NCBI GenBank assembly: GCA_014382295.1
Contig: JACNJZ010000094.1
Span: forward strand, 1 to 45,892
Origin: Candidatus Desulfobia pelagia
GTDB taxonomy: Bacteria; Desulfobacterota; Desulfobulbia; Desulfobulbales; SURF-16
DNA: 45,892 nt
Reading direction: 5' to 3'
Below, in pieces: positions 3,413 to 10,996 of the stretch; within the stretch, counting starts at the first letter, position 1, and each line of letters starts with the position of its first letter. A program made the position numbers and the translations under genes. The notes beneath the pieces are model-generated. The model was not told where the DNA came from. It ran no database searches and worked only from the letters and a program-made list of their open reading frames with translations.

Positions 3413-4513
3413 TTACGCCCCTGTTGTCAAGTGATCGCCAAGCCCCTTATGGGAAGAGAGAGTCCCATCTTCCCCATACAGGAAATGTAACGTTGCCAGC
3501 ATATTCGGCGGCCTGTAGTTTCGATCCATGTGCATTCTGTCGACTACACTATGATGCAAAACAGGATACTCTTCAGAAATTTCATCATTTTTATTAACCC
3601 TTACCCACCGACTGGCCAGTGTCGCCCTGGCAACAGGAAACCATCTGTCCTTCGGGTGCATTATACCAACAGGGGAAGGCTTGAGGGTGATATCGTCCGG
3701 TTCAACGGCACAGGGCTCGCCTGCATTTCTCAAATTGGCGTAGTCTATATCTTTCGGAGCGATACTTTCCAGGCCAAGATTCCGTTTTTTTATTTCCCTG
3801 AGAACAAAATCCAGCGCGATATCAGAGAGGCCGTCATGGAAAAAACCACCGCCAACATCGCCGTGGGACCCTGGAAACCATATCTCTGTCACCCTCTGGT
3901 CCTTATTCATCAATGTCGGCTGAAAAGCGATCCTGTTTTCATCCAGAGCCACCAGGTGAAGGGCTTCCTGGACCCCGGCCGCCACGGTGTTATTTTCAAA
4001 CACCACATCCGACACCGGCTTTTCATCGTCATCAAGGTTAGGCAGGCCAAGGGAGGCCACCGTATCAAAAACAGCAAGAAATCGAATTGCGGGTATTGCT
4101 TTTACCCCGTGCAAACCTTTCTGATGGAGGATGGCGGCAAAACGCCGGGCCAGCGCCGCCCCCCGGGAAAAACCAAACAGATAGACAGAATCGCCATCCT
4201 GCCAAATTTCCGACAAATCCTTCCGGGCCCTGTTCAATATCCTTCCGACATCCAGATTTTCCGGAGCAAACACCACATTAAACAACCTCTGCAAATGATT
4301 GCCATACGTGCCGACACCAGAATAATACAGGCCGTGCTGCCTTTCATTCTGTGCCTTGTTCAGCATATTGCCGCCGAGCAGAAGATGCAGTTTGACAATA
4401 TTGGTGATACTGCTGTCCTCTATCCTGCCAAGCCCAAACCACTCCCGTTCCTGCTCAGCATCTTTCGGATGGTTATTTGTTCCATCAAAACAGATGGTGA
4501 TTTTTTTACCCAT
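3413..4513 (-). CDS. DUF2235 alpha/beta-hydrolase (Tle1-like phospholipase fold)
   Basis: The 366-residue protein begins with the family's hallmark KITICFDGTNN and has a GFSRGA nucleophile elbow with Ser117. A later FPGSHGDVGGG stretch (catalytic His/Asp region) is also typical. DUF2235 proteins include type VI secretion phospholipase effectors (Tle1) as well as many uncharacterised hydrolases. Here no VgrG, Hcp, PAAR or immunity gene lies alongside; it heads an operon with sir2, an M23-like gene and folA, which argues against a secreted effector. The substrate is unknown. It is divergent from hsp20 across a 99-bp region holding a palindrome. A long antisense frame overlaps it and is treated as a shadow. 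Confidence 0.85.
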   Translation of the reverse strand: MGKKITICFDGTNNHPKDAEQEREWFGLGRIEDSSITNIVKLHLLLGGNMLNKAQNERQHGLYYSGVGTYGNHLQRLFNVVFAPENLDVGRILNRARKDLSEIWQDGDSVYLFGFSRGAALARRFAAILHQKGLHGVKAIPAIRFLAVFDTVASLGLPNLDDDEKPVSDVVFENNTVAAGVQEALHLVALDENRIAFQPTLMNKDQRVTEIWFPGSHGDVGGGFFHDGLSDIALDFVLREIKKRNLGLESIAPKDIDYANLRNAGEPCAVEPDDITLKPSPVGIMHPKDRWFPVARATLASRWVRVNKNDEISEEYPVLHHSVVDRMHMDRNYRPPNMLATLHFLYGEDGTLSSHKGLGDHLTTGA

Positions 4514-7446: not shown

Positions 7447-7485
7447 TTCTCTCCAGAAATTTCCACATCCAGTCGTTGCTTAACT

Positions 7486-7528
7486 AAAAAAAGCGGCGGA
7501 GAGGTTACCCTCTTCCACCGCTTTTTTT
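7486..7528. terminator. Bidirectional intrinsic terminator between lon and the cytochrome-rhodanese gene
   Basis: A GC-rich hairpin (AAGCGGCGGAGAGG pairing with CCTCTTCCACCGCTT, 4-nt loop) is flanked by an A-run on the left and a T-run on the right. It can therefore end transcripts from both convergent genes. Confidence 0.85.
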
Positions 7529-7551
7529 ATCAGCTATCGATGAGCGCTATG

Positions 7552-9687
7552 CTACTCAACAGCACAGAAATTAACCCATGAAGCATCATGGACCCTGACA
7601 TCGTCAAAGCCCAGGTAACGGAACATAAAGTAGGCGCTTCCGGCAAGCTGGCCAGTATTACAGCTTGTGATAACGGTATGCTTGGGAGTAATGCCATTTT
7701 TCTTCAGCATCCAGAGCAACTCATCCGGTTTTTTCAGCGCGCCGTTTTCCATATAGAGTGCGCTGAGAGGCAGGTTAATGGAGCCTGGAATCCTTCCGGC
7801 ACGTGCCGCCTGACCGTGTTTGGCCAAACCTTTTGCCTGGCTGACGATACGGGAATCGATAATCTTGACCATATTATTATCAAGATTTGCCCTGACATAA
7901 TCATTGTCAACCGTAAACCCTGGATTGACTGTGCCACCGAAGGCAACCTCTTCAGGCTCGACTTCCTCATCCGACATATGATAACCGGCCTCATGCCACC
8001 CTTCTATGCCGCCATCAAGATAAGAAACGTTGGTTGCACCGGCATATTCAAGTACCCAAATAATAAATCCGGCATTTTTCCCATCTTTGTCATATACGAC
8101 GATATGGTCATCAGCTTTTAAACCTTGTTCACCTATAATCTCAATAAGTTCATTATCTGCGATAAGCTGCATTGGGAAATCATCATCCCACGAGTGGCGT
8201 AATCCTGACTGAATCGGATCTAGAGGGACAGCACCTTTGATATGCCCCTTCTCATAAGGACCTTCCCCTCTTGCATCAACAATTTTCACACCTTTTTTCC
8301 CGATGTTATCATGCAGCCATTTGGCATCGACGACCATGTTATGCCTGACTTTGCTGGTATCAATATTGAGAGGCATGACCTTTTTACGCTTCTTGGGAAC
8401 CTTGTTGTCCGGTACGACAACCTTGGCATTTGCCTCTATTTCGTAGTCAAGAAGATCTTTTGTATCCAAAAAGAGCTCTCGGTTTCCATGGCAGTTATTA
8501 CAGTTGGCTGTCTGCCAGGTTTTACGCTGAATATTATGCGGTGAAGTACGCTTCCAGTTCGGAGTGTTGCTGAAGTTGGTGAACGCGTCTTTCACATAGA
8601 AATCAAAAAGTTTCGGATCCGTGGGTTCATGACGGACCAGGATATATTTATTCGTCTGGTTCGGCTCATCCTTGTCATAGTTAAGGCCAATTTTCATGCC
8701 TTCAACTTCTTTCTGGTTCTGGAAGTAGCGGAGGCCTTCATCGTCTTTACCGGTATGACAACTGTAGCAATTGACATATGTCTGGGAATGACATACCTGA
8801 CACTGGACTTTACCAACATGCAGATTATGATCTCGCACAGATCCATATTTCAGGTCCTGATGACAGTCCTCACAATTCACCATCTCTTTCAGATGGTAGC
8901 GGCCTTTCAAGCCTTCAGGAGCGGCAGCATGCATTTCTTCTGCCGGATGACAGGCCACACAGTCCATATCATACTTGGTCACATGAACGTCACCCTCACC
9001 GCGAGATCCGTAGTACTCAGCGCCTACCCTACTGCCATGACAGGCAGTACACTGGTTAAACGGATCAGACCGTTTCTGGAACATATGGCCATCTATAAAT
9101 CCTTTCTTGGCAAATTTCGGACGGCTGACATGACACCCGCCGCAACTTGTATGACATGCAGCACAATGACCTTTACGAGCCTCGTCAATTTCATGCCACT
9201 TGTTCATATCAGAACGGGTTTTCAGCACTGTTGTAAAAGTTGATAGAGTAGCATGCAGAGAATCTTTTGCCGTAGAGACTATATCTTCATGGCATTCCCC
9301 ACAGGCACCTTCAGGATTGTTAATGGATGGATGGGGATCAAAATCTTTATGGGCGCCGGCTTTAGTTTTATCAGCAGGATTTCCACCGTGACAGTTTTCA
9401 CAGCCGACCTCGCCATGATCTGTTTCCAGAAAATCACCAGACACCAGAACTTTTTCGACTGGCCCCAACGGGGCCACTTTTCCGCCTCAGCCTGCACCTG
9501 ACTGTTTGGCAGACCCCTTTTTCTTGACGACAGTTATATTTTCTTCCAACATTACTTCGTCAGTATGGCAGCCGATACAGCTCGACTCACTTGCAAAGGC
9601 CTTCCCGACACCAATAAAGGGAATCAGCCCTGCGGCCAGAATGGTGACACATGCACCAAACAAACATCGCTCTTTCCATTTTTCCAT
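7552..9687 (-). CDS. Probable selenoprotein: undecaheme cytochrome c with tandem C-terminal rhodanese domains (ExtKL-like), Sec67
   Basis: Read from the ATG at 9687 (GAGGAGG ribosome site), the frame gives a signal peptide (about residues 6-32) and a CIGCH heme motif, then meets UGA at 9487-9489 and continues open to 7552. With UGA as selenocysteine the product is 711 residues with Sec67 (context SGAG-U-GGK). There are eleven CxxCH motifs in total, one before and ten after the UGA, down to CNNCH. Two rhodanese domains follow: the first has DARG and an inactive loop (YDKDGK in place of Cys), the second a CNTGQLAG active loop with Cys676. This layout resembles the cytochrome family I recall as ExtKL in selenite/tellurite-reduction operons. 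It would act in the periplasm; electron partner and substrate are unknown. If UGA is a true stop, the downstream part would start at a GTG (9477) without any signal peptide, which is implausible for a cytochrome c. Confidence 0.85.
9457..9489 (-). promoter_or_regulatory. Candidate bacterial SECIS element at in-frame UGA
   Basis: On the minus strand the UGA (9489-9487) is followed by ten nucleotides and then a perfect 7-bp stem, TGGCCCC / GGGGCCA (9476-9470 and 9466-9460), with a GUU loop (9469-9467). The loop begins 17 nt after the UGA and its first base is G. This fits the published bacterial SECIS model: loop 16-37 nt from UGA, loop of 3-14 nt, G in the first two loop positions. The hairpin lies inside coding sequence, as expected. 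Confidence 0.72.
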
Positions 9688-9808: not shown

Positions 9809-10996
9809 TTAATCATCATCGGAATCTAATTCTTCCCACCCGTCGGTCAGGGTTTCAAGAAAAACAACTAGATCTTCGAGTTCCTGGTTGGTCAGTTTCA
9901 GATTGCCGAGTTCCTCCCTGTTCACATTCTCGGCAACTTCAGGGTCTGGCCAACAGGAGACGTCACGAGTGTTATAGAAGGCCAAGACATTGAACAGCGT
10001 CTTATATACACCATTGTGCAGATAAGGGGCGGTGATTGCAACATTGCGAAGAGTTGGTACACGAAATTTGCCATTCTGCGCCGGATCATTGACAGTCTTT
10101 CCCAACCCCAGGTCAATGAAGGAAAAACCGTCAGGGTTCAGCTCAGGAGGTAAAGAGTAGAAAGGATTTTCCGGATTCCGAGGTGTCCCCAGATTGTCAT
10201 ATGTGAAATCAGTAAAAAGCGGCGGGGTCCCATCCTCTTCAGGTCTGCTTGGATGACAGGCAGCGCAGTTTCCCTTCTCTTCGTCATCAAAAAGCTTTAA
10301 ACCCCGTAATTCCTGTTCACTCAATTCAGCTTCACCCCGAAGCCAGTGGTCATACTTTGAACTGAAAGGATTTACCTCGGGGGTCATCTCATAAGCCGCA
10401 ATGGCATCTGCCATGTTGTCGAAAGCCAAGTCTGGAGTACTCAGGGCCTCAGATCCGTAAACTTCAATAAAAAGAGAAGCATAGCTAAGCTGCCTCAGTT
10501 TCTCAACAATGGTCAGCGTATCAGGATTGGCCATTTCCAGAGGATTAAGCGGTGGCCCCTGGGCTTGCTCGGCCAAAGAGTTAACCCGACCATCCCAGAA
10601 AAGCCCGCCAACCCAGACGTCTTCTCCTTTGTTGAAATGCAAAGGCGGCACAAAAGCAGCATAGGAAACAGTCATATCATTTCGATTGCCGAATAAACCG
10701 GGACGGGCTCCTTTGGAAACCGGCAGACCAGTTAAAGGATCAGCAAAGGCTATTTCAGGATCGTGGCAGGCTGAACAGTCCTGACCTGGTGGTGTCGAAA
10801 GGCTCTTCTCAAAAAACAGCAGCTTACCAAGGCGCTCCTTGGCATTAAAAGATGAATCAATTGAGACGACAGGTAACTCGTGATCATCTTCATCATGATC
10901 GTCATGTAAATTTTTAGCACAGCCACCGAGAAGGAACACCGCCAGCAGAGCAATGACGGACAACTCGCATAAATGAAATCTTTTCTGACCAACCAT
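9809..10996 (-). CDS. MauG/cytochrome c peroxidase-family diheme lipoprotein
   Basis: The 395-residue protein has a lipoprotein signal ending at LLGGC (Cys26), so it is probably anchored to the periplasmic side of a membrane. Two heme motifs, CSACH (Cys74-His78) and CAACH (Cys244-His248), and a PTLRNVAITAPYLHNG block are typical of bacterial diheme cytochrome c peroxidases and MauG-like proteins. The family either reduces H2O2 or performs heme-based oxidation chemistry; which applies here is not known. A His/Asp-rich stretch after the lipid anchor (residues 31-39) might bind metal. It ends 121 bp upstream of the 11-heme selenoprotein gene on the same strand, so the two may share electrons or a transcript. 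A GAAGAGG ribosome site supports the start. Confidence 0.9.
   Translation of the reverse strand: MVGQKRFHLCELSVIALLAVFLLGGCAKNLHDDHDEDDHELPVVSIDSSFNAKERLGKLLFFEKSLSTPPGQDCSACHDPEIAFADPLTGLPVSKGARPGLFGNRNDMTVSYAAFVPPLHFNKGEDVWVGGLFWDGRVNSLAEQAQGPPLNPLEMANPDTLTIVEKLRQLSYASLFIEVYGSEALSTPDLAFDNMADAIAAYEMTPEVNPFSSKYDHWLRGEAELSEQELRGLKLFDDEEKGNCAACHPSRPEEDGTPPLFTDFTYDNLGTPRNPENPFYSLPPELNPDGFSFIDLGLGKTVNDPAQNGKFRVPTLRNVAITAPYLHNGVYKTLFNVLAFYNTRDVSCWPDPEVAENVNREELGNLKLTNQELEDLVVFLETLTDGWEELDSDDD

Follow-up and report, generated by a model that had tools for sequence, protein, structure and literature searches.

A predicted selenocysteine-containing undecaheme cytochrome c fused to a tandem rhodanese in Candidatus Desulfobia pelagia

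The cytochrome–rhodanese gene and its surroundings

The DNA analyzed here (the window) is a stretch of 45,892 nucleotides, contig JACNJZ010000094.1 of Candidatus Desulfobia pelagia. Its minus strand carries, at 9687–7552, a frame of 711 codons that starts at an ATG (9687) preceded by the ribosome-binding sequence GAGGAGG, ends at a TAG (7554–7552), and contains a single in-frame TGA, which is codon 67 (9489–9487). We describe this region (7552–9687) as one gene for a predicted 711-residue selenocysteine (Sec)-containing undecaheme cytochrome c/tandem-rhodanese fusion. An N-terminal signal peptide leader (9592–9687), recognized by its sequence, a hydrophobic stretch, and a predicted helix at residues 2–18, is followed by heme motif 1, CIGCH (residues 37–41; 9565–9579), and by the UGA, predicted to be Sec67, in the motif SGAGUGG (9487–9489). 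A SECIS-like hairpin, UGGCCCC-GUU-GGGGCCA, occupies positions 9460–9476. The rest of the cytochrome part (8389–9402) comprises heme motifs 2–11 (Cys96 to residue 433) and nine invariant histidines outside the motifs, and the C-terminal third is a TST/MST-like tandem rhodanese (residues about 448–711; 7555–8346). All of these features lie on the minus strand.

A first-pass annotation of this DNA had recognized the in-frame UGA in the signal peptide/CIGCH frame and ten further heme motifs behind it, and both observations hold: the full frame has 11 CXXCH motifs, CIGCH before the UGA and ten after it. The same annotation let the frame continue for 641 codons after the UGA. The continuation is real, but 644 codons follow the UGA; 641 is the count from a GTG at 9477. 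Standard ORF calling did what had been anticipated, splitting the frame into exactly 66 amino acids (9687–9487) and 641 amino acids (9477–7552), and annotation pipelines would likewise cut each gene of the family described below in two, leaving a short piece and a cytochrome without its leader.

The rhodanese part, absent from the first-pass annotation, matches PF00581 in two stretches (E-value 3e-31). The first of the two domains lacks the catalytic cysteine; the second has it, as Cys676 (codon 7660–7662) in the loop CNTGQLAG. In a Foldseek search, the full predicted model matched rhodaneses only, and the cytochrome-only predicted model (pLDDT 75) gave no match; the predicted structure contains no hemes. 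The C-terminal region shares its fold with tandem rhodaneses of the TST/MST type, such as bovine rhodanese (1rhd) and Escherichia coli SseA (1urh), at a TM-score of about 0.8 by target, and has a CxxGxxA-type catalytic loop in common with them. The score against the MST equivalog model was 108 bits, under its cut-off of 250 bits. Unlike these enzymes, the rhodanese described here is joined to an 11-heme Sec cytochrome and is predicted to be exported. Among the best hits of a tblastn search of plasmids, only the rhodanese region was matched.

Downstream of the gene, a strong hairpin with A/T tracts (7485–7529; −30.8 kcal/mol, z −7.9) lies before the convergent lon gene and is probably a bidirectional terminator for both genes. 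The upstream gene (9809–10996, minus strand) encodes a di-heme cytochrome c peroxidase of the CCP/MauG type whose leader resembles that of a lipoprotein. We considered this peroxidase as a partner of the cytochrome and dropped it, since the neighborhoods of the relatives' genes showed no CCP/MauG gene; for the same reason, it probably stands outside the system. Elsewhere in the window, a minus-strand ORF truncated by the window edge (1–661) has four CXXCH motifs and is part of another multiheme cytochrome, and a minus-strand ORF at 3413–4513, beginning MGKKITICFDGTNN, resembles, by eye, a DUF2235-type hydrolase. A search of the window against Rfam gave no match.

Conservation of the UGA codon and of its hairpin

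The cytochrome belongs to a family of undecaheme Sec cytochromes that is widespread and conserved across the Desulfobacterota, with Sec between heme 1 and heme 2. About 75 homologous genes were found in this phylum. A first scan yielded six loci, in Desulfobulbaceae, Desulforhopalus, and others, with TGA in all five that cover the column. When 395 genomes of the phylum were then searched with a profile, more than 50 cytochromes with 10 to 11 hemes and a TGA at column 67 emerged; with a broad family-wide profile, 46 of the 395 genomes had a TGA-bearing match, and a class-level search gave a match in 48 of 258 genomes. Reach beyond the Desulfobacterota was covered by one scan of genome contigs with six peptide patterns. 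Three motif classes can be distinguished around the Sec column: A (G-U-GG.V.PLEP), B (AG-U-GVSAPQVRGRD), and C (GEG-U-AG.PPPV). In the tree, class B and class C each form a clade (100/100), and the fused genes cluster (95/71).

The alignment agrees with the earlier placement of Sec67 between hemes 1 and 2. Of the 48 family members aligned, 47 have Sec at column 67, and Gly66 is invariant; from heme motif 1 to His91, these are the only positions that are invariant or nearly so. The first-pass annotation had proposed looking for Sec or Cys at this column in ExtKL-family cytochromes. In the homologues found here, Sec dominates, and in 12 relatives of the same class that lack any stop the residue is Tyr (TAC or TAT) in 11 (loci L098, L135–L142, L144, and L145) and Cys (TGC) in the remaining one (L143, genome G430), which makes Cys at the Sec column rare. 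Homologues with a true stop, or with no residue at this column, did not turn up. One genome (G633) has two paralogues, one with Sec and the other with Tyr. The Tyr members form one group (96/77), beside the Cys member and outside the Sec-bearing fused genes. Since all other branches of the unrooted tree carry Sec, Sec looks ancestral at column 67.

The hairpin is as it had been described: a 7-bp GC stem that starts 10 nt after the UGA and closes a GUU loop 17 nt away from it. The likeness to known bacterial SECIS elements is borne out by the published bSECIS rules (PMC13188914), which ask for a loop of 3–9 nt with a G within its first two positions, a stem of 4–16 bp, a spacing of 16–37 nt, and a minimum free energy of at most −7.5 kcal/mol; the hairpin in the window, at −12.8 kcal/mol, falls within all of them. 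The window has 1880 TGA triplets on its two strands, and codon 67 is the only one with a GC-rich stem of at least 7 bp and a GU-bearing loop at that distance. Generic folding of the 53 nt in the window is unremarkable on its own (z −1.0), and across the family the mean z is only modestly lower than in control windows (−1.15 versus −0.21). Because these values are weak, a test with a fixed stem and a comparison of genes with and without UGA were needed.

In the first set, 41 of 57 UGA genes passed the bSECIS constraints and 16 missed them in their strict form, and all 20 UGA genes of the class-level set passed. None of the 12 class relatives with a Tyr or Cys codon did so, and the background rate was six in 824 UGAs; in the Tyr subclade of the fusion the hairpin is absent. 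For the fixed stem, we counted paired positions and compared them with synonymous recodings drawn from each gene's own codons. Clade A had 168 of 175 pairs, compared with 101 ± 5 after recoding (maximum 118 in 1000 recodings), clade C had 129 of 154 versus 75 ± 5, and clade B had 48 of 56 versus 34 ± 3. This procedure takes related sequences as independent, so that relatedness inflates its z-scores; a control with slid pairings and the UGA/non-UGA contrast are less exposed to this effect. In the clade A alignment, covariation at the stem was 0.393, compared with 0.164 ± 0.022 for shuffled alignments; slid pairings did not exceed 0.184. In 16 cells, both sides of the stem had changed. The stem also survives a reciprocal exchange: GGCUCC-GUU-GGAGCC encodes A-P-L-E-P and GGAGCC-GUU-GGCUCC encodes E-P-L-A-P, such that Ala and Glu swap places between VAPLEP and VEPLAP while the pairing is preserved. 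These sequence comparisons indicate that the stem is under selection at the RNA level in the family.

Decoding of codon 67 and relation to known families

The genome encodes the complete Sec machinery, which the first-pass annotation had listed as a check: selC (73 bits; called SeC with anticodon tca by ARAGORN), selB (367 bits), selA (625 bits), and selD (366 bits). The selD gene (G000:C204:4867–5787) lies on the same contig as selC and has its own in-frame UGA, in AAGUASK, a canonical Sec site. As selA occurs in 355 of the 395 genomes of the phylum (90%), its presence is permissive and does not discriminate. In two genomes (G097:C1, locus L100, and G224:C19, locus L069), selA lies 1.2–1.3 kb from the Sec cytochrome gene.

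The phylum-wide UGA, a covarying hairpin that is absent where the UGA is absent, the Tyr and Cys replacements, and the full Sec machinery together support Sec67, and UGA codon 67 is almost certainly read as Sec, which agrees with the initial proposal of a probable selenocysteine. That the UGA is instead a true stop, in a pseudogene, through a sequencing error, or between two products with reinitiation at the GTG at 9477, would fit the 66- and 641-residue pieces that ORF callers yield. This reading is hardly credible: some 75 genes from many genera have UGA at this column, the residues flanking it are conserved on both sides, and relatives carry Tyr or Cys in a single open frame. Against reinitiation in particular, the GTG sits at the stem base, and clade C has no such start codon there; moreover, a second product without a signal peptide could not acquire periplasmic hemes. 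Decoding of the UGA by near-cognate readthrough, or as Trp or Cys, is very improbable as well, since the hairpin accompanies the UGA and is lost with Tyr and Cys codons, and since the genome has the Sec machinery and carries UGA at known Sec positions in selD and in an ExtKL gene. Very probably, then, the locus is one SECIS-directed selenoprotein gene for an exported 11-heme cytochrome with a tandem rhodanese, for which we propose an action on sulfane sulfur.

The first-pass annotation had pointed to the ExtKL family (cyt_C_like_Sec, NF040886; gsu2937-2936), also represented by MccSep, and the gene could in principle be a member with a role in selenite or tellurite reduction. Both are multiheme c-type Sec cytochromes of Desulfobacterota with an in-frame UGA, and there is weak profile similarity across the heme motifs (E-value 0.0098). 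However, the fusion has no match to NF040886 at E ≤ 1 (curated cut-off 250 bits), and ExtKL/MccSep proteins have five rather than 11 hemes, carry Sec in a C-terminal domain (HRIPDGU) rather than between hemes 1 and 2, and lack a rhodanese. The same genome has a separate, true ExtKL gene (G000:C67:14549–15727, locus L112; 417 bits) with five hemes and an in-frame UGA in HRIPDGULWSG. We therefore rejected membership in ExtKL, which we regard as very unlikely. The PDB entries 9wt8–9wtc ("multiheme cytochrome c selenoprotein", MccSep, U325A mutant) match L112 and align with it through U325, the Sec named in these structures; they are a precedent for the structural study of Sec in a multiheme cytochrome of another family.

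The proposal that ExtKL is a selenoprotein dates from 2007 (PMC1914089), and a discussion followed in 2018 (PMC5877670). A 2026 selenoprotein catalogue (PMC13188914) includes ExtKL, GSU2204, and one octaheme cytochrome, a Sec member of the octaheme tetrathionate reductase family, and has no entry like the fusion or its relatives. To the octaheme tetrathionate reductase model itself (TIGR04315; 1sp3), the fusion, which differs in having 11 hemes, is weakly similar in a local match that spans a few hemes (23 bits; cut-off 375). The selenite/tellurite operon also places a rhodanese (ExtH, NF040901) and a multiheme cytochrome (ExtM, NF040943) near a Sec cytochrome, but scores against these models were far under their cut-offs (13.8 of 200 and 24.5 of 800 bits, respectively). 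The hypothetical protein DG (NF049953), with a GUxG motif, was not matched in NCBIfam at E ≤ 1, and no NCBIfam model covers the undecaheme Sec cytochromes. Thus, the family is not covered by the selenoprotein and NCBIfam catalogues searched, and no description of it or of the fusion was found in the open-access library searched. A large family is apparently added to the bacterial selenoproteins. Its near-lack of Sec/Cys pairs (one case) may explain its escape from searches based on Cys/UGA pairing, a weakness that the authors of deep-Sep concede (PMC12013277).

Possible roles of Sec67 and the rhodanese

In the working model, translation of UGA codon 67 as Sec would be guided by the SECIS element 10 nt downstream; the product would be exported to the periplasm, acquire 11 c-type hemes there, and carry the tandem rhodanese at its C-terminus. 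Cys676 would form a persulfide with sulfane sulfur drawn from thiosulfate or polysulfide. Sec67 might attack or position this sulfur, or it might instead be the ligand of a heme without a distal His. Electrons fed through the heme chain would release sulfide, or the reaction may run in the reverse direction. A periplasmic role in sulfane-sulfur redox chemistry is suggested only tentatively. In sulfate reducers and related bacteria of sediments, it would tie selenium to sulfur chemistry.

The cytochrome part has no conserved Cys besides the heme cysteines and Sec67, which makes a dithiol mechanism of the UxxC type unlikely. With nine invariant non-motif His for 11 hemes, two hemes are without a conserved His partner. 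Where Tyr or Cys replaces Sec, the nine His are retained, apart from a single residue of one sequence. Heme iron accepts selenolate, thiolate, and phenolate alike as ligands, and Tyr at this column in the sister subclade fits purely selenol or thiol chemistry poorly. Sec67 (Cys or Tyr in relatives) might ligate a c-type heme, axially or on its distal side, and tune electron transfer, the protein being an electron relay rather than a sulfur enzyme. The His count, the exchange of Sec, Cys, and Tyr at one column, and the missing resolving Cys speak for this reading, and the partnership with rhodanese, which points to sulfur chemistry, speaks against it; we consider it rather unlikely. From the lack of other conserved Cys, the nine His for 11 hemes, and the rhodanese association, we favor, with considerable reserve, a seleno-heme site that cooperates with a rhodanese-bound persulfide, to which pure heme ligation is a close rival. 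A bolder reading, speculative and doubtful, takes the protein for a new periplasmic sulfane-sulfur reductase whose rhodanese passes persulfide sulfur to a seleno-heme site; there, Sec67 would serve a c-type heme as its natural selenolate ligand or as a catalytic residue on the distal side, with Tyr or Cys able to replace it in sister lineages. The Sec/Cys/Tyr series within one family offers a handle on the role of selenium beside heme.

The rhodanese association extends beyond the gene in the window. The rhodanese is fused to the cytochrome in six loci of the first set, with more in the class, and in 29 further loci it is the next gene downstream (seven of eight in clade B, 20 of 22 in clade C, and two in clade A). 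In clade C, the operons also encode further rhodanese together with membrane proteins of the cytochrome b/multiheme kind, as expected for quinol-linked electron input. In two clade C loci (L100, 8848–10713, and L091, 10577–12451), the gene beside that of the Sec cytochrome encodes a protein with nine hemes and a membrane region at its C-terminus, which Pfam marks as cytochrome b561-like in L091; this protein is the likely point of electron entry. In a branch of clade A, 16 loci with room for an adjoining gene have no rhodanese there, so that sulfur chemistry may not be family-wide. In L066 and L096, which are clade A Sec cytochrome loci without a rhodanese, two neighboring genes are common to both; by eye, one product has the look of a metallo-beta-lactamase fold and the other is a small cysteine-rich protein.
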